Assembly: GCA_900314525.1 (NCBI GenBank)
Contig: OMVN01000011.1
Span: 1-58,684 of the forward strand
Reading direction: 5' to 3'
DNA length: 58,684 nt
DNA from: an uncultured Eubacteriales bacterium
Lineage (GTDB): Bacteria > Bacillota > Clostridia > Lachnospirales > Lachnospiraceae
Both the position numbers and the translations under genes were made by a program. Under the pieces are notes generated by a model. That model saw only the letters and a program-made list of their open reading frames with translations, searched no databases and was not told the DNA's origin. Positions 38,768-54,371 of the stretch are shown in pieces. The first letter of the stretch is position 1. Every line of letters starts with the position of its first letter.

Positions 38768-39784
38768 ATGGCAGTAAGAGTTGCAATTAATGGTTTTGGC
38801 CGTATTGGTCGTCTTGCATTCAGACAGATGTTTGGAGCAGAAGGATATGAAGTAGTAGCTATCAACGATTTAACAAGTCCTAAGATGTTAGCACACTTAT
38901 TAAAGTATGATTCATCACAGGGTAAATATGAGCATGCTGATGAAGTTTCAGCTAGCGATGATTCAATCACAGTTTGTGGTAAAGAAATCAAAATCTATGC
39001 TTTCCCAGATGCTAACAATTGCCCATGGGGAGATTTAAAAGTAGACGTTGTATTAGAGTGTTCAGGATTCTATACATCAAAAGAAAAAGCACAGGCTCAT
39101 ATCAATGCAGGTGCAAGAAAGGTTGTTATCTCAGCTCCAGCTGGAAACGATCTTCCTACAATCGTTTACAACACAAACCATGAGACATTAAAAGCTGATG
39201 ACACAATCATCTCAGCAGCTTCATGTACAACAAACTGTTTAGCACCTATGGCTGATGCTCTTAACAAATTTGCAGCAATCCAGTCTGGTATCATGGTAAC
39301 AATCCATGCTTACACAGGTGATCAGATGACACTTGATGGACCACAGAGAAAAGGTGATTTAAGAAGATCTAGAGCAGCTGCAGTTAATATCGTACCTAAC
39401 TCAACAGGTGCTGCAAAAGCTATCGGTCTTGTTATTCCAGAATTAAATGGAAAATTAATCGGATCTGCTCAGCGTGTACCTACACCTACAGGTTCTACAA
39501 CAATCTTAACAGCAGTTGTTAAAGGTGCTGACGTTACAGTTGATGCTATCAACGCAGCAATGAAAGCAGCAGCTAACGAATCATTCGGATACAACGAAGA
39601 TGAAATCGTTTCAAGCGATATCGTTGGAATGAGATTTGGTTCATTATTCGATGCTACACAGACAATGGTTAACAAAGTAGCTGACGACTTATACGAAGTT
39701 CAGGTTGTTTCTTGGTATGATAACGAAAACTCATACACAAGCCAGATGGTTAGAACAATCAAATACTTCTCAGAATTAGCTTAA
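38768..39784 (+). CDS. gap: Glyceraldehyde-3-phosphate dehydrogenase
   Basis: The enzyme oxidises glyceraldehyde-3-phosphate to 1,3-bisphosphoglycerate with NAD+. The 338-residue protein has the Rossmann start [16 protein letters not shown], Asp in VAINDL (NAD preference), catalytic Cys in [13 protein letters not shown], and the C-terminal [15 protein letters not shown]. Codon use is shifted to C-ending codons (AAC, ATC, TTC) and TTA, as expected for very high expression. AGGAGG precedes the ATG. It has its own promoter and terminator before pgk; no cggR regulator gene is next to it. Confidence 0.98.
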
Positions 39785-39805
39785 TTTTGAATAGTTAAGA
39801 TCCTA

Positions 39806-39842
39806 GAGCGGGTCCGGTCTTTTTTGGGTCGGGCTCGTTTTT
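39806..39842 (+). terminator. Bulged intrinsic terminator after gap
   Basis: GAGC and CCGGTC pair with GGTCGG and GCTC (bulge GGGT on the left arm, TTTTTT loop), followed by GTTTTT. Confidence 0.75.
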
Positions 39843-39921
39843 AGTAATGCTAATATGCTATTTGCGAATTTCAGAATTTGTGAATAAGTTATAATTTTAT
39901 ATCTATGAAAGGAGCAGGATT

Positions 39922-41121
39922 ATGCTTAATAAAAAGTCAGTTGATGATATCAACGTAAAAGGAAAAAGAGTTTTAGTAAGATGTGACTTCAACGTACCTC
40001 TTGATGCTGATTTAAATATCACAGATGAGAATAGATTAGTTGCAGCTCTTCCTACAATCAAAAAATTAATCTCAGATGGAGGAAAAGTTATTCTTTGCTC
40101 ACATCTTGGAAAACCTAAGGGAGAGCCAAAGCCTGAATTATCTTTAGCACCAGTTGCTAAGAGATTAACAGAATTACTTGGACAGGAAGTAAAATTCGCT
40201 GCTGACGCTACAGTAGTTGGCGAAAATGCAAAAGCTGCAGTAGCTGCAATGAACGATGGTGATGTTGTTCTTTTAGAGAATACAAGATACCGTGCAGAAG
40301 AGACAAAGAATGAAGATGCTTTCTCTCAGGATTTAGCAAGCCTTTGTGATGTATTTGTAAACGATGCATTTGGAACAGCTCACAGAGCTCATTGTTCAAA
40401 TGTTGGTGTTACAAAATATGTTGACACAGCAGTTGTTGGATATTTAATGCAGAAGGAAATAGATTTCCTTGGAAATGCAGTAGATCATCCAGTAAGACCA
40501 TTTGTAGCTATTCTTGGTGGAGCTAAAGTTTCATCTAAGATTCCAGTAATTGAAAACTTATTAAATAAAGTAGATACACTTATCATCGGTGGTGGTATGG
40601 CTTATACATTCATGGCAGCACATGGTGAAGAGGTTGGTAAATCTTTACTTGAGGAAGATTACAAACAGTATGCACTTGACATGGAAGAAAAAGCTAAAGC
40701 TAAGGGTGTTAAATTATTAATCCCTATTGATACAGTAGTAGCTGATGATTTCTCTAATGATGCAAACTCTAAGATTGTTGAAAGAGGAGAAATTCCAAGT
40801 GATATGGAAGGTCTTGATATTGGACCAAAGACAAGAGAATTATTTACAGAAGCAATTAAGGGTGCTAAGACAGTTGTTTGGAACGGACCAATGGGATGTT
40901 TCGAAATGCCAAACTTTGCAAAGGGTACAATAGCTGTAGCTAAGGCTTTAGCAGAACTTGAAGATGCTACAACAATCATCGGTGGTGGTGATTCAGCAGC
41001 AGCTGTTAATAACCTTGGATTTGGTGATAAGATGACTCACATTTCTACAGGTGGTGGAGCTTCACTCGAATTCCTTGAAGGTAAGGAACTTCCAGGTGTT
41101 GCTGCAGCAAATGACAAATAA
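39922..41121 (+). CDS. pgk: Phosphoglycerate kinase
   Basis: Pgk makes ATP from 1,3-bisphosphoglycerate. The 399-residue protein has [67 protein letters not shown] and GGGDSAAAV. Length matches the family. The ATG at 39922 follows GAAAGGAGC. A TATAAT at 39890-39895 may be its -10, but no good -35 is seen. tpiA follows after 29 bases with no terminator, so the two are probably co-transcribed. Confidence 0.98.
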
Positions 41122-41150
41122 GATTTAAGTAATTAAGGAGATATATTATT

Positions 41151-41900
41151 ATGCGTAAAAAGATAGTTGCCGGAAACTGGAAAATGAATAAAACTCCAAG
41201 TGAGGCAGTAGCTTTAGTAAATGAATTAAAACCATTAGTTGCCAATGAAGATGTTGATGTAGTATTCTGCGTACCTGCAATTGATATTATTCCTGCAATG
41301 GAAGCTGCTAAGGGATCAAACATCGTTATTGGTGCTGAAAACATGTATTTTGAAGAGAGCGGAGCATACACAGGCGAGATTTCTCCAAGTATGTTAACAG
41401 ACGTTGGTGTTAAATATGTTATAATTGGACATTCAGAGAGAAGAGAATATTTTGCAGAGACAGATGAAACAGTTAACAAAAAAGTTTTAAAAGCTTTTGA
41501 GCATGGTATTACACCTATCGTTTGCTGTGGTGAGACATTAACACAGAGAGAACAGGGTATTACAATTGACTGGATTCGTCAGCAGATTAAGATTGCTTTC
41601 TTAAATGTTACAGCAGATCAGGCTAAGACAGCTGTTATAGCTTACGAGCCAATCTGGGCAATTGGCACAGGTAAGACAGCTACATCTGATCAGGCAGAGG
41701 AAGTTTGTGGTGCAATTCGTGAGTGCATCGCTGAAATATATGATGATGCTACAGCAGCAGAAATCCGTATCCAGTATGGAGGATCTGTTAATGCAGGAAA
41801 TGCAGCAGAATTATTTGCAAAACCTGACATCGACGGAGGACTTGTTGGTGGTGCTTCATTAAAAGCAGATTTTGGAAAGATTGTTAATTATAATAAATAA
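41151..41900 (+). CDS. tpiA: Triosephosphate isomerase
   Basis: TpiA interconverts the triose phosphates. The 249-residue protein has Lys in AGNWKMNKT, His in [11 protein letters not shown], the catalytic Glu in [11 protein letters not shown] and the phosphate loop YGGSV. It follows pgk with TAAGGAG as binding site and ends at a strong terminator. Confidence 0.98.
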
Positions 41901-41920
41901 ATTATATATAATATAATTTG

Positions 41921-41953
41921 GACCGGTTTTCGTAGGAAGACCGGTCGTTTTTT
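41921..41953 (+). terminator. Intrinsic terminator after tpiA
   Basis: GACCGGT (41921-41927) pairs with ACCGGTC (41940-41946), followed by GTTTTTT. Confidence 0.9.
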
Positions 41954-41955
41954 AA

Positions 41956-41984
41956 TTGACGTCAAATTTATTTAATGATATATT
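41956..41984 (+). promoter_or_regulatory. Sigma-A promoter of gpmI
   Basis: TTGACG (41956-41961), 17 bases and TATATT (41979-41984), directly after the tpiA terminator. Confidence 0.8.
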
Positions 41985-42017
41985 AGTACAGGAATTAAAA
42001 GTAAAGGAGACGATAAA

Positions 42018-43571
42018 ATGAGTAAAAGACCAGTAGTTTTAATGGTACTCGATGGTTATGGTATAAATGAGAAGACAGAGGGTAATGCCATTGCACAGGC
42101 AAATACTCCTGTTATGGACAAGTTAATGAAAGAATGTCCGTTTGAAAAAGGTAATGCCAGCGGACTTGCAGTTGGACTTCCTGATGGACAGATGGGAAAT
42201 TCTGAAGTTGGACATATGAATATAGGTGCAGGAAGAATAATTTATCAGGATCTTACAAAGATTACAAAAATGATTGCTGATGGAGATTTCTTTGAAAATG
42301 AGGGATTATTGAAGGCTGTAAAGAACGCAAAAGATAATAATAAAGACCTTCATTTATTTGGTTTATTATCAAATGGTGGTGTTCACAGTCACAACACACA
42401 TCTCTATGCATTACTTGAGTTAGCTAAGAGAAATGGTCTTGAAAATGTATATGTTCACTGTTTCTTAGATGGAAGAGATACAGCACCTACATCAGGCAAG
42501 GGATTTATTGAAGAATTAGAATCAAAAATGAAGGAAATTGGTGTTGGTAAAATTGCATCAATACATGGACGTTATTATGCTATGGATAGAGATAATAACT
42601 TTGACAGAGTTCAGAAAACATATGATGCTCTTGTTCTTGGAGAAGGAAACAAGGCTGACAGCGCAGTTGCAGCTATCACAGATTCATACAACAACGACGT
42701 TACAGATGAATTTGTAATCCCAACAGTTATATGTAATGATGGAAAAGCTTTAGCAACAATTAAAGAAAATGATTCAGTTATATTCTTTAACTTCAGACCT
42801 GACAGAGCAAGAGAAATAACAAGAGTTTTATGTGATAATAATTTCCCATCAGATGGAGTAAACTTTGAGAGAAAGGTTCCATTCTTTAACCTTACTTTTG
42901 TTTGCTTTAAGGATTATGATGAGACAATTCCAAATAAGACAATTGCTTTCCCTAAGGAAAATGTAGTCAACACATTTGGTGAATGGCTTGAGAAAAAAGG
43001 TAAAACACAGCTTAGAATCGCAGAAACAGAAAAATATGCACATGTAACATTCTTCTTCAATGGTGGTGTAGACAATCAGGCAACACATGAAGACAGAACT
43101 TTAGTTAATTCACCAAAGGTAGCAACATATGACTTACAGCCAGAAATGAGCGCTCCTGAAGTAAGCGAGAAGCTTGATGCTGCAATTACATCTGGAAAAT
43201 ATGATGCAATTATTATTAACTTTGCAAACCCAGATATGGTTGGACATACAGGTGTTATGGAAGCTGCAATTAAAGCTGTTGAGAGAATTGATCAGTGTGT
43301 AGGAGCTGCAGTAGAGGCAGTTAAGACAGCAGGCGGAGCATTATTTATCTGTGCAGATCACGGTAATGCAGAACAGATGGTTAATTACGAGACTGGCGCA
43401 CCACATACAGCTCATACTACAAATCCAGTTCCTTTCATCCTTGTTAATGCAGATCCATCAATTAAATTAAGAGAAAATGGTGCTCTTTGTGATATAGCAC
43501 CTACATTACTTGAGTTAATGGAGATGGAAATACCAGCAGAAATGACAGGTAAATCACTTATAGTTAAATAA
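42018..43571 (+). CDS. gpmI: Cofactor-independent phosphoglycerate mutase
   Basis: This metal-dependent enzyme converts 3- to 2-phosphoglycerate. The 517-residue protein has the metal site VLMVLDGYG, the phosphoserine in MGNSEVGHMNIGAGR, HCFLDGRDTAPTSG, NFRPDRAREI, NFANPDMVGHTG and CADHGNAEQM. Length matches the family. AAAGGAG precedes the ATG. It has its own promoter and terminator; enolase is not in the window. Confidence 0.98.
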   Translation: MSKRPVVLMVLDGYGINEKTEGNAIAQANTPVMDKLMKECPFEKGNASGLAVGLPDGQMGNSEVGHMNIGAGRIIYQDLTKITKMIADGDFFENEGLLKAVKNAKDNNKDLHLFGLLSNGGVHSHNTHLYALLELAKRNGLENVYVHCFLDGRDTAPTSGKGFIEELESKMKEIGVGKIASIHGRYYAMDRDNNFDRVQKTYDALVLGEGNKADSAVAAITDSYNNDVTDEFVIPTVICNDGKALATIKENDSVIFFNFRPDRAREITRVLCDNNFPSDGVNFERKVPFFNLTFVCFKDYDETIPNKTIAFPKENVVNTFGEWLEKKGKTQLRIAETEKYAHVTFFFNGGVDNQATHEDRTLVNSPKVATYDLQPEMSAPEVSEKLDAAITSGKYDAIIINFANPDMVGHTGVMEAAIKAVERIDQCVGAAVEAVKTAGGALFICADHGNAEQMVNYETGAPHTAHTTNPVPFILVNADPSIKLRENGALCDIAPTLLELMEMEIPAEMTGKSLIVK

Positions 43572-43602
43572 ATAACACATCATAGTTATTTCAGAAATAC
43601 AA

Positions 43603-43636
43603 AGAACCTCAATCGTTTGATTGAGGTTCTCTTTTT
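43603..43636 (+). terminator. Intrinsic terminator after gpmI
   Basis: AGAACCTCAATC (43603-43614) pairs perfectly with GATTGAGGTTCT (43619-43630), followed by CTTTTT. Confidence 0.92.
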
Positions 43637-43656
43637 GTCAGAATTAATATAATATA

Positions 43657-44520
43657 CTATTTATTTTTCTTTTTTTTTCTGAAAATAAAATTATGAATAC
43701 TTTCAAAATACAGTGCAAAATATGAATTTATCTCGGCACCGATAAACATCAGAAACATGCAAAAATACATCCATAACATAAATAATACTATTGTAGCAAG
43801 ACTTCCGTAAGTATACGAGAAGTTTGAAAAATTATTTATATACAGTGAAAGTATATAGGAAAGCAGTGTCCATGCAATTGCTGAAAAAATGGAACCGGGA
43901 ATAACAACAACAGTTGTGTTTTTTGATGTTATTCGTTCTATTTTATAGACGGCAATAAAAAATAGTGTTAACAGAGCCGTTATAAGTATAATTCGATTAT
44001 CCATAAAGACTGAGATAACTACAGCAGCTTTGGGAAAATCCTTTTCTATGGCATGAAAGATCTGATTTCCAAATACTAATAAAAGCATTGTAATTATAAT
44101 CACCGAAACAAAGATTAGTGTGTACAATGCGGCTATAGTTCTAAACAGAAAATAGTTTCTATTATCTTCATTGTGATAAACGGAGTTCAGACCGTTAATT
44201 ATAGCCATTACACCTTTTGCTGCAGCCCAAACTGTAAGAATTATGGATATTGATAGATATGTTCCGCTGTCTTTTGCAAATAATTCATTTAATATTTCGC
44301 CTATTAAGGGTTCAAAAGGTTTTGGCAGGATATCTATAATTGTTGAGTACAAAAAGTCCTGACTTATTGGTAAAAATCTTACTAGAGTCAGAAGAAGAGA
44401 TAAAAAAGGCATAAATGACATAAATAGAAAGAATGCAGCCTGTGCAGAGTAAGCACCTACATTATCCTTTGTAACGCGGTCGATGAAACCTTTTATCTCA
44501 AGAAAAAATTCAGAAATCAC
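43657..44520 (-). CDS. YihY/BrkB family membrane protein
   Basis: The 287-residue protein has six membrane segments and the family motif NVGAYSAQAAFFLFMSFMPF near the N-terminus, WAAAKGVMAIINGLNSVYH in the middle and YGSLATIVLFMLWMYFCMF near the end. A Lys-rich tail closes it. The family was once annotated as ribonuclease BN, which is incorrect; the transport or structural role is unknown. The start is a GTG at 44520 with AGGAG eight bases upstream on the minus strand. Confidence 0.9.
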   Translation of the reverse strand: MISEFFLEIKGFIDRVTKDNVGAYSAQAAFFLFMSFMPFLSLLLTLVRFLPISQDFLYSTIIDILPKPFEPLIGEILNELFAKDSGTYLSISIILTVWAAAKGVMAIINGLNSVYHNEDNRNYFLFRTIAALYTLIFVSVIIITMLLLVFGNQIFHAIEKDFPKAAVVISVFMDNRIILITALLTLFFIAVYKIERITSKNTTVVVIPGSIFSAIAWTLLSYILSLYINNFSNFSYTYGSLATIVLFMLWMYFCMFLMFIGAEINSYFALYFESIHNFIFRKKKKNK

Positions 44521-44643
44521 TGTATAATCTCCTATTCAAGTTAATTAAATAAAACCTAAAATATTCTATCATGAATATTTTGGTAAAGCAATATAATTAG
44601 AAAGGAATTGTTTAGCTCATTTTAATAAATATGGCAAAGTTAA

Positions 44644-44672
44644 TTGAAAATTATACTAAATTATGAGATAAT
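44644..44672 (+). promoter_or_regulatory. Promoter of the GlgB-like gene
   Basis: TTGAAA (44644-44649), 17 bases and GATAAT (44667-44672), about 40 bases before the start codon. Confidence 0.65.
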
Positions 44673-44714
44673 ATCAATATATTTATGCAAAATAATATTT
44701 GGAGGTACATGTAA

Positions 44715-47216
44715 ATGTTTGATAAACTATATGGGATGATGAATTGGCCTCTTATCGAGGGAATAGAGTACACAGATATTGATAATCCAAGTGATTTGCT
44801 TGGACAACATGTTATAGAAGATGGACTCCTTATACAGTCTTTTGTTCCTGATGCGGATAAGGTTTCCGTAAAATATGCAGGAAAATTATATGAAATGTAT
44901 AAAATGGATGATGACGGTTTTTATGCTACAATATTAGATTCAGATAAAACCGTTAAATATAAACTAGAAATAGAAAAAGATGGAAAGACAACTGAAGTTT
45001 ATGATGCATATTCATTCTATCTTCCAGACAGAATGAGTGATTACAAGAAATTCAATGCTGGAATTGCATATGACGCGTATGAATTTATGGGAGCACATCA
45101 TGTTACTGTATCAGGAGTGGATGGTGTGAGATTTGCAGTATGGGCTCCAAATGCACTTAGAGTTAGTCTTGTGGGTGACTTTAATAACTGGGATGGTCGT
45201 ATATATCAGATGACAAAAGTTGCTGATACTGGTATTTTTGAAATCTTTGTTCCTGAATTAAAGGCTGGATCACTTTATAAATTCGAGATAAAGAAAAAGG
45301 GCGGAGAAAATATATTGAAATCTGACCCATATTCATTTGAAATAGAAAAACAGGAAGATGGTGCTTCAATTGTTCCAGAAAAGAATGATTTTAAATGGAG
45401 CGATGTGTCATGGTTAAAGAAGAGAAATGGTTATAACCCAGCAGCAGAACCAGTATCTATATATCAGATAGGTTCAGGTGACTTTATGACAGATGAAAAA
45501 TCAACATACAGAGATATTGCCAAGAAATTATCTGATTATGTCACAAAGATGGGATATACTCATGTTGAATTCCTTCCAATAGTGAGAGCTGTTGAAGATA
45601 ATGATACATACATTCCAGATTTTATGTATGTAATGGATGATAAATTTGGCACAAAAGAAGACTTTATGTATATGATAGATTATCTTCATTCTAAGGGAAT
45701 AGGTGTAATACTTGACTGGACGCCTACAAGTTTTGCAAATTCACTTAACGGATTATCATATTTTGACGGCTCATGTTTATATGAAAGTGAAAATCCAAAG
45801 AGAGCTATTAATCCTAGAACTGGTGCACATATGTTTAATTATGGCAGAGCAGAGGTAACTAATTATCTTTTAGCGAATGCCTTTATGTTAATTGACTCAT
45901 ATCATATTGATGGATTAAATATAGTAAATATACCAGAGATGCTTTATCATGATTACAACAGAAATCCTGGTGAATGGGAGTCAAATATTTATGGTGGAAC
46001 TCAGAATCTTGAGGCTATTGAGTTTTTAAAACATTTCAATTCAATAATTCACAAATTAAGAGAAGGCGTAATTACTATCACAGATGATAATTCTGGATTC
46101 CCTGATATGACTGGTGTGGTAAGCGAGGAATGTATAGGTTTTGATCTTAAATTTAACAATGAATGGAAAAATGATTTCTTAGGATATATGGCTGTACCAG
46201 CATATTTAAGAGAATCAAGATATAATGAGTTATCTCTTAGTATGGTATACCAGTACAGTGATAATTTTGTAGTTGGATTTAATTCAAAAGAATTTGCAAA
46301 TGGAAACCAGTCTATGATTAGCAGAATGGCAGGAGAGACAGAGGAGCGTAAGTTCAACAATATGAAGCTTGCCATTTCTTACGAATATGTGTATCCTGGC
46401 AAGAAACTTATATTTGCAGGACAGGACATGGCAACATATGAAGAATGGAACAAAGAAAAACCTCTTAATTTTGACATTTTAGAAGAAGATAAATTTAAGA
46501 ATATAAACAATTTAGTTAAAGAATTAAATAAATTATATGCAGGTGAGAAAGCACTGTTCGAACTTGACAATGATGCGGAAGGATTTGAGTGGATAAATAA
46601 TATTTCTGCAAGAGAGAGTGTACTTACTTTTGTAAGAAGAGGTAAGAATCCTGATGATATGCTTTTAGTTGCATGTAATTTTGATGCAGTAGATAGATCA
46701 GATTATAAGATTGGAGTTCCTTTAAGAGGTAAATACAAAGAGATATTTAACTCGGATAGCAAGAATTTTGGTGGTAATGGATTTGTAAACCCTAGATTAA
46801 AGCAGTCAAAGACAGATGAGTGTGATGGCAGGGAAGAATCTGTTAGAGTTAATCTCGCTGGACTTAGCGTCTCTGTATTTAAGTTCTCAAAAGCAGATGT
46901 AAAATTAGCTGATAACAAGACAGCAAAGGCAAATACAAAGACTGTTACAAAGAAAGCTGCAGAAACAAAGGATACAAAGAAAGAACCTGTAAAAAAGCCA
47001 ACAACAAGAAAAAAAGCTTCTGCAAAGAAAACTGTTGATAAAAAAGATACAGTTAAGCCAGAAGTAACAACAGAAGTTAAGTCAGAGTTACCAAAAAAGG
47101 AAGCAGCAAAGACAGTAACTGTAAAAAAAGAAGCAACAGTGAAAAAAACATCAGCAGTAAAAAAAACAGAAGCTAAAAAGACAGTAAAAGAGACAAAAAA
47201 TAAGACAGCTAAATAA
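44715..47216 (+). CDS. GlgB-like (GH13) pseudoenzyme with lysine-rich tail
   Basis: The 833-residue protein has the domain order of a glycogen branching enzyme: a CBM48-like N1 module (1-100), a second CBM48 (FAVWAPNALRVSLVGDFNNW, about 135-220), a GH13 barrel and an all-beta C domain. The catalytic residues are missing. Region I reads DWTPTSF instead of DWVPAHF; region II reads DGLNIVNI (399-406), with Val404 at the nucleophile Asp and Asn402 at its Arg; region III has TDD (Asp457) for AEE; region IV has DN (516-517) for HD. The GSWGYQ segment is gone. Residues from about 727 form a Lys/Ala/Thr-rich tail. It probably binds glucan without cleaving it; this is inference. RBS TGGAGG. Confidence 0.88.
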   Translation: MFDKLYGMMNWPLIEGIEYTDIDNPSDLLGQHVIEDGLLIQSFVPDADKVSVKYAGKLYEMYKMDDDGFYATILDSDKTVKYKLEIEKDGKTTEVYDAYSFYLPDRMSDYKKFNAGIAYDAYEFMGAHHVTVSGVDGVRFAVWAPNALRVSLVGDFNNWDGRIYQMTKVADTGIFEIFVPELKAGSLYKFEIKKKGGENILKSDPYSFEIEKQEDGASIVPEKNDFKWSDVSWLKKRNGYNPAAEPVSIYQIGSGDFMTDEKSTYRDIAKKLSDYVTKMGYTHVEFLPIVRAVEDNDTYIPDFMYVMDDKFGTKEDFMYMIDYLHSKGIGVILDWTPTSFANSLNGLSYFDGSCLYESENPKRAINPRTGAHMFNYGRAEVTNYLLANAFMLIDSYHIDGLNIVNIPEMLYHDYNRNPGEWESNIYGGTQNLEAIEFLKHFNSIIHKLREGVITITDDNSGFPDMTGVVSEECIGFDLKFNNEWKNDFLGYMAVPAYLRESRYNELSLSMVYQYSDNFVVGFNSKEFANGNQSMISRMAGETEERKFNNMKLAISYEYVYPGKKLIFAGQDMATYEEWNKEKPLNFDILEEDKFKNINNLVKELNKLYAGEKALFELDNDAEGFEWINNISARESVLTFVRRGKNPDDMLLVACNFDAVDRSDYKIGVPLRGKYKEIFNSDSKNFGGNGFVNPRLKQSKTDECDGREESVRVNLAGLSVSVFKFSKADVKLADNKTAKANTKTVTKKAAETKDTKKEPVKKPTTRKKASAKKTVDKKDTVKPEVTTEVKSELPKKEAAKTVTVKKEATVKKTSAVKKTEAKKTVKETKNKTAK

Positions 47217-47231
47217 TATGGAGATTTATAT

Positions 47232-48167
47232 ATGTTACCTGTAAATGTGCTTTTAGAAGCAGCGACAGAAGTTACAACGGAAACTACGGCACAGATAGAA
47301 GAAACAACGGGATTTGTTCAAGATCCTGCTAAAACAGTAGAAAAAGCAAGTAAAATAATAACAGAGTTTAATAAGATACTGCCAACAATAATAAATTTTG
47401 GTATTAATCTATTAATTGCACTTATTATATTTATTGTAGGAAGATTTTTTATTAAATTTTTACTTAAGGTTACTAGAAGATTTTTAGAAAGAACGCGATT
47501 AGAAGTCACAGTACTGAGATTTTTAATATCTTTAGAGAGAGCAATATGTTATGTTATCCTTGTTATGATAATGCTTGAGACTGTTGGCATTAAAACCACA
47601 TCATTTCTTGCTCTGCTTACAACTACAGGTCTGGCAGCAGGTCTTGCACTGCAAGGAAGTTTATCAAATTTTGCCGGTGGAGTACTGATATTGATTATTA
47701 AACCATTTAAAGTTGGAGATTATATAGAGTGTGTTGATATGGAAGGAACAGTTGAAAAAATTGATTTGTTCTATACATCATTAATTAGTTATGATAACAG
47801 ACTAAAAGTTATACCAAATGGTATTTTATCAAATAACACAATCTGCAACTGGACTGCATTTGATATTAGAAGAGTTGATTTCAAGTTTGGTGTGAGTTAC
47901 GACACCGATATAACAAAGGCAAGAAAGGCAATTGAAAGTGCTGCCTCTAAATGTGAAAAACTTTTTAAGGATAAACCAATAAAGACATTTGTATCAAGTC
48001 TTGATGAGAGTCAGGTGACTCTAGGACTTTTTGTATGGGCAAAGTGTGACAACTATTGGGATGTTAAGTTTGAAATAAATGAATCAGTAAAGAATAAACT
48101 TGATGAAGAGGGTATAGAAATACCATTTAATCAGATTGTAGTACATAATGTAAAAGATGGTGAATAA
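47232..48167 (+). CDS. mscS: Small-conductance mechanosensitive channel (MscS family)
   Basis: The 311-residue protein has a poorly conserved Thr/Glu-rich N-terminus, three membrane segments (about 52-77, 97-118, 123-150), and the pore helix region TTTGLAAGLALQGSLSNFAGG followed by the beta-domain IKPFKVGDYIECVDMEGTVEKI and VIPNGILSNNTICNW. It opens on membrane tension to release solutes during osmotic downshock. It starts 15 bases after the GlgB-like gene with GGAG, so both may be transcribed together, ending at the bidirectional terminator. Confidence 0.94.
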   Translation: MLPVNVLLEAATEVTTETTAQIEETTGFVQDPAKTVEKASKIITEFNKILPTIINFGINLLIALIIFIVGRFFIKFLLKVTRRFLERTRLEVTVLRFLISLERAICYVILVMIMLETVGIKTTSFLALLTTTGLAAGLALQGSLSNFAGGVLILIIKPFKVGDYIECVDMEGTVEKIDLFYTSLISYDNRLKVIPNGILSNNTICNWTAFDIRRVDFKFGVSYDTDITKARKAIESAASKCEKLFKDKPIKTFVSSLDESQVTLGLFVWAKCDNYWDVKFEINESVKNKLDEEGIEIPFNQIVVHNVKDGE

Positions 48168-48181
48168 AAACAGATTTTAAT

Positions 48182-48233
48182 AAAAAAACCATAACTTAAG
48201 GAATAATATGATTCCATAAGTTATGGTTTTTTT
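48182..48233. terminator. Bidirectional terminator between mscS and argH
   Basis: AAAAAAACCATAACTTA pairs with TAAGTTATGGTTTTTTT, and an inner GGAAT/ATTCC extends the stem. A and T runs flank both sides, serving the convergent genes. Confidence 0.92.
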
Positions 48234-48247
48234 AATGTATAGTAATT

Positions 48248-49624
48248 CTAAGATTCTGCCAGATATTTCTCGTTAATTTTAATTACGTTTTCCATTGCCT
48301 TTATACCAGGAGCACCTATGGTTAAACGTTTTTCAACACATGTCTTCATACTGATTGCTTCGTATATATCTTCCTCAAATACTGGGCTGATTGCCTTGAA
48401 TTCATCAAGAGACATATCGTCAAGAGCAATTCCCTTATCAATGCAGAATAATACAAGCTGACCAACAATGCCGTGAGCATCTCTGAATGGTACTCCGTGA
48501 TTTACGAGATAATCTGCAGCATCAGTTGCATTTGTGAATCCGTTCTTTGCACTGTTTTCCATAATATCTTTATTGAATTTCATAGTAGCTATCATGCCAG
48601 TGAACAAGCTAATACAGCCTTTAACTGTATCAATAGCATCAAAAGTTAATTCTTTATCTTCCTGCATATCCTTATTATATGCAAGTGGAAGACCCTTCAT
48701 TGTAGTTAATATTGACATTAATGCACCGTAAACTCTGCCAGTCTTACCCCTAACAAGTTCTGCAATGTCAGGATTTTTCTTCTGAGGCATGATACTGCTG
48801 CCTGTGCTGTACGAATCATCTATTTCAACAAATCTGTATTCATTAGTATTCCAGATTATAATTTCTTCACTGAATCTACTTAAATGCATCATAATGGTTG
48901 AGAGTGCACTTAAAAATTCAATAACATAATCCCTGTCTGCAACTGAATCCATACTATTTAATGTTGGTCCGTCAAAATCAAGTAATTTTGCTGTAAGTTC
49001 TCTGTCTAATGGATATGTAGTACCAGCAAGGGCACCTGAACCTAATGGGCAATAGTTCATTCTCTTGTATATATCTGAAAGTCTCTGTCTGTCTCTCTTG
49101 AACATCTCAAAATATGCACCAAAGTGATGAGCCAATGTGATTGGCTGTGCTTTTTGGAGATGTGTAAATCCTGGCATAAAAGTAGCAGTATTATCTTTCA
49201 TTATCAAAAGAATTTCATTTAAAAGAGCTTTCAGAAGTTCATCTGTTTCCTTAACTTCATCTCTTGTATAAAGTTTCATATCAAGTGCAACCTGGTCATT
49301 ACGACTTCTGCCTGTGTGAAGCTTTTTGCCTGTATCACCGATTCGCTCAATTAATGTTTGTTCTACAAAACTGTGTATATCTTCAGCAGTAGGATCAATC
49401 TCTAAATTTCCTGATTCAACATCATTTAAAATTCCTGTTAAACCTTCTACAATTTTATCTTTTTCCTCATCAGTCAATATTCCTGAAGAAGCTAACATTG
49501 TAACGTGTGCAATGCTTCCTCTGATATCCTGTTTATAAAATTTCTGATCAAATGAAATTGATGCATTAAAATTATGAACTAATGCATTTTCTTCTTTGGT
49601 GAAACGTCCACCCCATAATTTCAT
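48248..49624 (-). CDS. argH: Argininosuccinate lyase
   Basis: ArgH splits argininosuccinate into arginine and fumarate. The 458-residue protein starts [20 protein letters not shown], has [30 protein letters not shown], the superfamily signature [12 protein letters not shown] with the catalytic Ser, and [10 protein letters not shown]. All family regions are present. No argG or other arg gene lies nearby. The ATG at 49624 follows GGCAGGA on the minus strand; a terminator separates it from htpG. Confidence 0.97.
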
Positions 49625-53192: not shown

Positions 53193-54371
53193 ATGAAAGA
53201 ATTAGAATTAAAATATGGTTGTAACCCTAATCAGAAACCATCAAAGATTTTTATGAATGATGGAGAACTTCCAATTGAAGTTTTAAATGGAAAACCTGGA
53301 TACATCAATTTTCTTGATGCATTTAACGGATGGCAGCTTGTAAATGAATTAAAGAGAGCAACAGGCATTCCAGCAGCTACATCTTTCAAACATGTATCAC
53401 CAGCTGGTGCAGCAGTAGGCCTTCCACTTAATGATGTAGAGAAGAAAATCTACTGGGTAGATGATATGGATATGGAATTTACTCCACTTGCAAATGCATA
53501 TGCAAGAGCAAGAGGTGCCGACAGAATGTCTTCATTTGGTGATTTTATTTCATTATCAGATGTGTGTGATGTTCCAACAGCAATGCTTATAAAGAGAGAA
53601 GTTTCTGATGGAGTTATTGCTCCAGGATATGAGCCAGAAGCACTTGAAATATTAAAGGCTAAGAAGAAGGGAAATTATAATGTAATCAAAATTGATCCTT
53701 CATATAAGCCAGCTCCTGTAGAGCACAAAGAAGTTTTTGGAATCACATTTGAGCAGGGAAGAAATGAACTTAAGATTGATGAGGAAATGCTTGAAAATAT
53801 TGTAACTAATAATAAAGAAATTCCAAAAGAAGCAAAGATTGATTTAATAATTTCATTAATTACATTGAAATATACACAGTCTAATTCAGTATGTTATGCT
53901 AAGGGCGGACAGGCAATAGGTATCGGAGCAGGACAGCAGTCACGAATTCACTGTACAAGACTTGCAGGTTCTAAGGCTGATAACTGGTTCTTACGTCAGT
54001 CACCTAAGGTACTTGGACTCCAGTTTGTTGATAAAATCGGAAGAGCAGACAGAGATAATGCAATCGATTTATATATCGGTGAGGATTATATGGATGTATT
54101 AGCTGATGGAGCATGGGAGAATATTTTTAAAGTAAAACCTGAAGTATTCACAAAAGAAGAAAAGAGAGCATGGCTTGACCAGATGCAGGATGTTGCACTT
54201 GGATCAGATGCATTCTTCCCATTTGGAGATAATATTGAGAGAGCACATAAGAGTGGTGTTAAGTATGTAGCTCAGCCTGGCGGATCAATAAGGGATGATA
54301 ACGTAATTGACACATGTAATAAATATGATATGGCAATGTGCTTTACAGGAATCAGACTTTTCCACCACTAA
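53193..54371 (+). CDS. AICAR transformylase (stand-alone PurH C-domain type)
   Basis: The 392-residue protein formylates AICAR with 10-formyl-THF. It starts with LKYGCNPNQKPS, has TSFKHVSPAGAAVG with the catalytic Lys-His pair, ARARGADRMSSFGDFIS, YTQSNSVCYAKGGQAIGIGA, GQQSRIHC and DAFFPFGDNI. The N-terminal cyclohydrolase domain of PurH is missing, and the preceding gene supplies that activity. It starts 17 bases after purO with AAAGGAG and ends at a terminator. Confidence 0.93.
   Translation: MKELELKYGCNPNQKPSKIFMNDGELPIEVLNGKPGYINFLDAFNGWQLVNELKRATGIPAATSFKHVSPAGAAVGLPLNDVEKKIYWVDDMDMEFTPLANAYARARGADRMSSFGDFISLSDVCDVPTAMLIKREVSDGVIAPGYEPEALEILKAKKKGNYNVIKIDPSYKPAPVEHKEVFGITFEQGRNELKIDEEMLENIVTNNKEIPKEAKIDLIISLITLKYTQSNSVCYAKGGQAIGIGAGQQSRIHCTRLAGSKADNWFLRQSPKVLGLQFVDKIGRADRDNAIDLYIGEDYMDVLADGAWENIFKVKPEVFTKEEKRAWLDQMQDVALGSDAFFPFGDNIERAHKSGVKYVAQPGGSIRDDNVIDTCNKYDMAMCFTGIRLFHH

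Follow-up and report, generated by a model that had tools for sequence, protein, structure and literature searches.

A branching enzyme homologue lacking its catalytic residues is retained beside mscS in Lachnospiraceae

The window analyzed here, a contig of 58,684 nucleotides (OMVN01000011.1) from the uncultured Eubacteriales assembly GCA_900314525.1 (Lachnospiraceae), carries on its plus strand an open reading frame (ORF) for a homologue of the glycogen branching enzyme GlgB that has lost its catalytic residues (44715..47216, stop included; 833 amino acids from an ATG start). This protein, hereafter pseudo-GlgB, keeps the predicted fold of a branching enzyme, evolves under purifying selection, has an intact GlgB elsewhere in its genome, and lies beside the mechanosensitive channel gene mscS; comparable losses have occurred repeatedly in the family. 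The interpretation we favor, with a confidence somewhat short of even, is that pseudo-GlgB is a non-enzymatic glycogen scaffold, kept for a second function inherited from its ancestors and co-expressed with MscS.

We assigned residues by alignment to the intact GlgB of the same genome and to solved branching enzymes (Vibrio vulnificus, 9u77; Cyanothece, 5gqu; Escherichia coli, 1m7x). Unlike the solved enzymes, pseudo-GlgB lacks the nucleophile, the acid/base, and the transition-state residues. On the plus strand, the SWGYQ motif is lost at residues 295–303 (45597..45623), the region I His is replaced by Ser339 (45729..45731), the region II Arg by Asn402 and, two residues on, the nucleophile Asp by Val404 (45918..45926), and the acid/base Glu by Asp457 (46083..46085). 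These four losses, of motif, region I His, nucleophile, and acid/base, had been proposed in a preliminary description of the DNA, and the alignments bear them out. The same description placed the transition-state His-Asp pair at Asp516-Asn517, which proved wrong: the YSDNF found there aligns to FSENF of active enzymes, and the true site is Ser524-Lys525 (46284..46289), where SHDE has become NSKE. With V404, D457, and K525 in place of the nucleophile Asp, acid/base Glu, and transition-state Asp that GlgB requires as an enzyme, we infer that the protein no longer branches glucan.

The remainder of the protein has the domain order of GlgB, as indicated by Pfam, NCBIfam, an AlphaFold2 model, and structural comparison of that model by alignment against Foldseek's top 1000. 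An N-terminal domain (PF22019; residues 14–99, 44754..45011) is followed by a CBM48 carbohydrate-binding module (CBM; PF02922; residues 125–207, 45087..45335), a glycoside hydrolase family 13 (GH13) (beta/alpha)8 barrel with a destroyed active site, whose boundaries we set at residues about 216–620 (45360..46574), and an alpha-amylase C-terminal beta domain (PF02806; residues 626–724, 46590..46886) with the motif NPRLKQSKTDECDGR. Within the barrel, the best stretch of the Pfam alpha-amylase catalytic match is 266–335. All 8 N-domain positions that are at least 95% invariant in active copies are retained, as are 92% of 36 such positions in CBM48. The fold is thus predicted to be intact despite the dead active site, in keeping with the earlier view that CBM48 and the barrel framework remain. 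That description had the frame open from the correct start and ended it at 46890; the true end at 47216 adds a Lys-rich, low-complexity tail of 109 residues (46887..47213; 35 K, 1 R, 20 T, 14 A, and 14 D or E). The last 80 residues form the most basic C terminus among the 52 ORFs of at least 100 amino acids in the window. Although it has no catalytic residues, the protein passes the cut-offs of two GlgB equivalog models (TIGR01515 and NF008967), a warning for annotation; it scores below that of NF003811 (632.1 versus 741 bits), which the genome's intact GlgB reaches with 859.5.

The source genome is 99.66% complete, and other contigs encode an intact short GlgB, GlgA, two phosphorylases (glgP), and GlgC, together with a second GlgC-like copy that falls below the GlgC model's cut-off. 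The separate, active-type GlgB that the preliminary description presupposed is therefore present, and the cell, judged by its gene content, could still make glycogen. Among 10 genomes of the genus, a group-2 GlgB occurs in nine and a third GH13 protein also in nine; all 18 keep their motifs, and one third-GH13 copy (L032) shows a stop codon inside its retrieved frame. In all 28 degenerate-copy genomes searched outside the genus, the sequence most similar to the short GlgB keeps its motifs wherever these can be read; the set leaves aside the genomes of six degenerate contigs (L070, L071, L073, L079, L093, and L109). Two of the 28 partner loci are partial (L322 and L323, the latter without the GYQ region), and in three genomes (G018, G101, and G196) the best match is another N-domain copy without mscS, such that an intact long copy and a degenerate one coexist. 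When up to three candidates were scored per genome, single-match genomes numbered 0/30 among those with a degenerate copy versus 17/95 among those whose long copies are all intact (Fisher p 0.012; the 17 were read by eye). Catalytic loss follows GlgB redundancy. In gut bacteria such as Blautia obeum and Dorea longicatena, genomes with several glgB homologues have already been described (PMC10395257).

A pseudo-GlgB copy is present in all 10 genus genomes searched. Every one has lost the nucleophile, region I His, and transition-state His; nine have lost the acid/base Glu (retained in L014), and nine the transition-state Asp (retained in L016). Because the same losses recur over 10 copies, chance does not account for them, and since one copy (L074, which is L016) comes from the isolate Lachnospiraceae bacterium RM5, neither does metagenome assembly. 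For the closest pair of genomes, L010 and L011, whose cores are 90.5% identical, the Nei–Gojobori (NG86) ratio of nonsynonymous to synonymous substitution (dN/dS) is 0.041 at a dS of 1.2, compared with 0.034 for the intact short GlgB and 0.044 for the third GH13 protein of the same genomes; the barrel alone gives 0.048. Four degenerate pairs span 0.041–0.078, with dS saturated in two. We quote pairwise values only, having set aside a tree-wide codon-model omega (0.020, genus) because synonymous sites are saturated. No frame among the 10 stops before the tail; one is truncated where its contig ends, and a TAA in L010 is its own C-terminal stop. Purifying selection and an intact frame across species, the marks of a selected pseudoenzyme, are both found.

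The distribution of change points the same way. In a clade of 16 dead sequences, 41 of the 42 lost positions that are invariant in active copies fall in the barrel, and 35 positions are near-fixed (at least 15/16) yet unlike the active consensus. Substitutions concentrate in the barrel active site, not the pattern of random decay. Together with the separate glgB and the low dN/dS, this focus supports, as far as sequence tells, the selected non-enzymatic role that had been suggested. Identity to the window proteins in eight genus genomes is 53–69% for the dead core, 43–67% for MscS, and 78–90% for the short GlgB.

Loss is not confined to this genus. Of 208 distinct long-type (N-domain) GlgB cores collected from the family, 38 have lost the nucleophile, 27 the acid/base, and 33 the transition-state Asp; at least one member of this triad is missing in 43 (one of them, L245, being a gap) and all three in 20. 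Including the transition-state His, 44 cores have lost at least one of four residues, the difference arising because L223 has lost that His alone; seven of the 44 are missing a single residue and might still be active. Because 80 of the contigs were selected as the top matches to a dead-copy query, 44/208 is not an unbiased frequency; in a draw from the family, 25 of 113 loci were degenerate among the matches listed. Identical cores (18, then 5 loci), cores shorter than 600 amino acids, and copies matching only after residue 60 were dropped before counting. A first scan of genome contigs with a single protein as query found no relative.

The losses do not trace to one event. The 16 dead sequences, drawn from the genus and lineages sister to it, group as one clade in a quick tree (Shimodaira–Hasegawa-like approximate likelihood ratio test, 100), and other degenerate sequences fall elsewhere. 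Holding 19 degenerate representatives together in a 50-row tree, as a single origin requires, was rejected (log-likelihood difference 293; approximately unbiased test p 6e-31). Starred branches of that tree force at least 5 label changes, and a FastTree of 211 rows needs 4–5; three of the 19 (L219, L223, and L254) are missing a single residue, and leaving out L219 lowers the number of changes by one. The number of events is approximate, since long branches are in play.

Of the positions at least 95% invariant in 164 intact copies, the 44 degenerate copies retain a fraction of 0.99 in the N-domain (8 positions), 0.92 in CBM48 (36), 0.67 in the barrel (147), and 0.98 in the C-domain (12). The nine intact short paralogues, in turn, retain 0.94 (CBM48), 0.91 (barrel), and 0.64 (C-domain) of the long-type invariant positions. 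This double dissociation between barrel and C-domain is our strongest argument for a second function of the long type, located away from the active site; repeated loss of the active site with the other domains kept is, at the level of sequence, natural evidence of a GlgB job beyond catalysis. In 28 sequences compared, the C-domain motif NPRLKQSKTDECDGR occurs in dead and several active long-type copies and in none of three short copies. Four N-domain copies with intact residues, tails under 20 amino acids, and no mscS (L225, L238, L239, and L247) split off close to the base of the long-type tree.

A further feature of the long type is its neighborhood. In the window, mscS (47232..48167, plus strand; Pfam) begins 15 nt after the pseudo-GlgB stop, and a genome search found it to be the only MscS-domain match alongside one MscL. 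Counting a same-strand match that starts within 600 nt, in copies with enough DNA, mscS follows 141 of 204 long copies (30/42 degenerate and 111/162 intact), is the very next ORF in 137, and lies at a median gap of 21 nt over mscS-bearing loci. It follows none of 16 short genus paralogues (16 of 18 genus copies). Tails of at least 20 residues occur in 166/204 long copies, 132/162 intact and 34/42 degenerate. As both tail and mscS neighbor are found in intact and degenerate copies alike, they are probably older than the losses. The window protein bears every mark of the mscS-linked long type: N-domain, C-domain motif, basic tail of at least 20 residues, and mscS next. Among the 30 best-scoring loci read from the order, 23 lie in other families (2 with under 400 nt downstream); GlgB is intact and its tail at most 5 residues in 23/23, and mscS follows one. 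Further matches in other families have frames of up to 861 amino acids, so tails may exist there.

The pair is kept in all nine genus loci with downstream DNA, none of which shows the upstream block typical of the family (ser genes, DUF1015-like, and ilv genes, named by reading sequences; L010 has almost no upstream DNA). In a test for passive synteny with this block over 161 loci with enough flank, mscS was present in 59 with the block and 48 without, and absent in 28 with and 26 without. The gene may share a transcript with mscS. An RBS-like GGAGG, assigned by its position, lies 9 nt before the ATG (44701..44705, plus strand). The good promoter once attributed to the gene survives as a sigma-70-like consensus match (TTGAAA-17-GATAAT, with TG before the second hexamer; 44644..44672, plus strand), although such sites around the gene are no more frequent than in shuffled sequence (17 versus 20.6). 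No Rfam family was found within 43500–48500.

Catalytically silent relatives of these enzymes offer precedents. The SLC3 amino-acid transporter subunits rBAT and 4F2hc are alpha-amylase-fold pseudoenzymes that serve as non-enzymatic partners of membrane transporters; unlike pseudo-GlgB, however, they are membrane-anchored, eukaryotic, and not of branching-enzyme origin, and the window protein's tie to a channel is one of gene adjacency. The plant isoamylase ISA2 is a non-catalytic GH13 paralogue that works beside an active one in glucan metabolism, in complex with ISA1; non-catalytic functions of ISA1 and ISA2 are said to have been treated in one study. ISA2 belongs to the debranching family, whereas pseudo-GlgB is a branching-enzyme homologue. 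Closest is the plant class III branching enzyme MKIP1 (PMC13172542), which likewise combines lost catalytic residues, a conserved CBM, and a Lys-rich disordered region; the conservation of fold is predicted in our case. MKIP1 is a plastid splicing partner of MatK, keeps its acid/base Glu and transition-state His, and carries its charged region as an internal insertion of ~150 amino acids after the CBM, whereas pseudo-GlgB is bacterial, adjoins mscS, represents a recurrent loss, has lost both residues, and bears its charged region as a C-terminal tail. Compared with the Cyanothece enzyme, it has no MKIP1-like insertion: CBM48 runs to 207, and the barrel is matched from 266 at the latest. Dead branching enzymes are thus already known in plants; our literature searches, covering the top matches among open-licence papers, found no bacterial example and no glgB-mscS pair.

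In the scaffold interpretation, the non-enzymatic function would already have belonged to this Lachnospiraceae GlgB type when its ancestor was still an active enzyme. CBM48 and the N- and C-domains would hold pseudo-GlgB on glycogen, the Lys-rich tail would attach the protein to a negatively charged partner, whether membrane lipid, nucleic acid, or polyphosphate, and a single operon with MscS would tie the placement or handling of glycogen to osmotic state. The MscS cytoplasmic domain reportedly binds FtsZ. E. coli glycogen has been reported to form condensates that do not register with the cell as cytoplasmic space (PMC12706056). These two reports make a glycogen–MscS link plausible.

Several observations weigh against this interpretation. 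The strongest counter-example is again MKIP1, in which conserved CBM48 Trp residues are dispensable (PMC13172542); conservation is therefore no proof of glucan binding. The barrel has lost so many conserved residues that a glucan may no longer be held in its cleft. No mscS follows 63/204 copies, its adjacency to glgB can be passive synteny, and a tight link between tail and mscS was rejected, the association being weak (p 0.049, without phylogenetic correction). The tail itself diverges fast (dN/dS 0.36 at 43% identity), and 8/42 degenerate copies have none of 20 amino acids or more.

Among the alternatives, we would place first, while still thinking it unlikely, a regulatory partner: a dead subunit that binds intact GlgB, GlgA, or GlgP and modulates its activity or recruits it to the particle. 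The intact GlgB in all degenerate-copy genomes searched outside the genus, the nine intact group-2 copies within it, and the lack of single-match genomes among those with a degenerate copy agree with this idea, but the glycogen genes found sit on contigs other than the window's, and a backup is equally expected under any loss of enzyme function. We are also doubtful of an MKIP1-like neofunctionalization in which the tail contacts RNA or DNA and CBM48 serves as a protein interface. MKIP1 is a dead branching enzyme whose Lys/Glu-rich, largely disordered insertion is needed for function (PMC13172542), and both the window tail, with 35 K in 109 residues, and the 35 near-fixed positions of the dead clade would suit a protein- or nucleic-acid-binding role. 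Yet tails also end 132/162 intact copies, hence are not bound to a new role, and the nine intact short GlgB of the genus (L007 and L017–L024) also end in K/R-rich extensions of 16–28 residues, so basic ends may be a general trait of branching enzymes here.

Rather improbable, in our estimate, is a direct modulator of the MscS channel that acts independently of glycogen. Its pairing with mscS is conserved, and the dead core diverges somewhat less than MscS, though more than the short GlgB; against it, intact enzyme versions share the neighbor, many copies lack it, and MscS functions alone in other bacteria. Decay of a redundant branching enzyme toward a pseudogene would explain why degenerate copies occur, where searched, only in genomes with another GlgB, and why the protein diverges faster than the short GlgB; it is nonetheless disfavored by dN/dS (with dS saturated in two of the four pairs), by frames that reach the tail, and by non-catalytic domains that are nearly unchanged, and we consider it very improbable. 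An enzyme with a different chemistry, built on other residues of the former pocket in a barrel that is still constrained and predicted to fold, is scarcely credible, since no carboxylate regularly takes the place of the nucleophile (the 38 copies that lost it have V, N, A, S, T, H, C, I, or G there, with Glu in 2 only).

Elsewhere in the window, a BrkB-family membrane protein (PF03631; 43657–44520, minus strand) is encoded divergently from pseudo-GlgB; its relatives occupy a minus-strand position upstream at 8 loci, each of which holds a degenerate copy. The plus-strand ORF run at 38768–43571, upstream of pseudo-GlgB, presumably encodes GAPDH, PGK, TIM, and phosphoglycerate mutase. The last steps of purine synthesis are split between an IMP_cyclohyd protein (PF07826; 52462–53175, plus strand), which we take to be archaeal PurO-like, and an AICARFT protein (53193–54371, plus strand) that matches profile positions 76–311 of the bienzyme model, in place of one fused PurH.

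The intact, partly degenerate, and fully dead copies provide ready comparison sets in which to find the second job of GlgB. A broader proposal, which we advance with low confidence, is that Lachnospiraceae GlgB has two functions, the non-catalytic one being to hold glycogen in a place or state that is sensed by or shared with MscS, such that a storage polymer would take part in turgor control; where another GlgB branches, the chemistry would repeatedly have been discarded and the scaffold kept. Should the link to MscS prove functional, a major family of gut and rumen bacteria would couple its handling of glycogen to osmotic protection.
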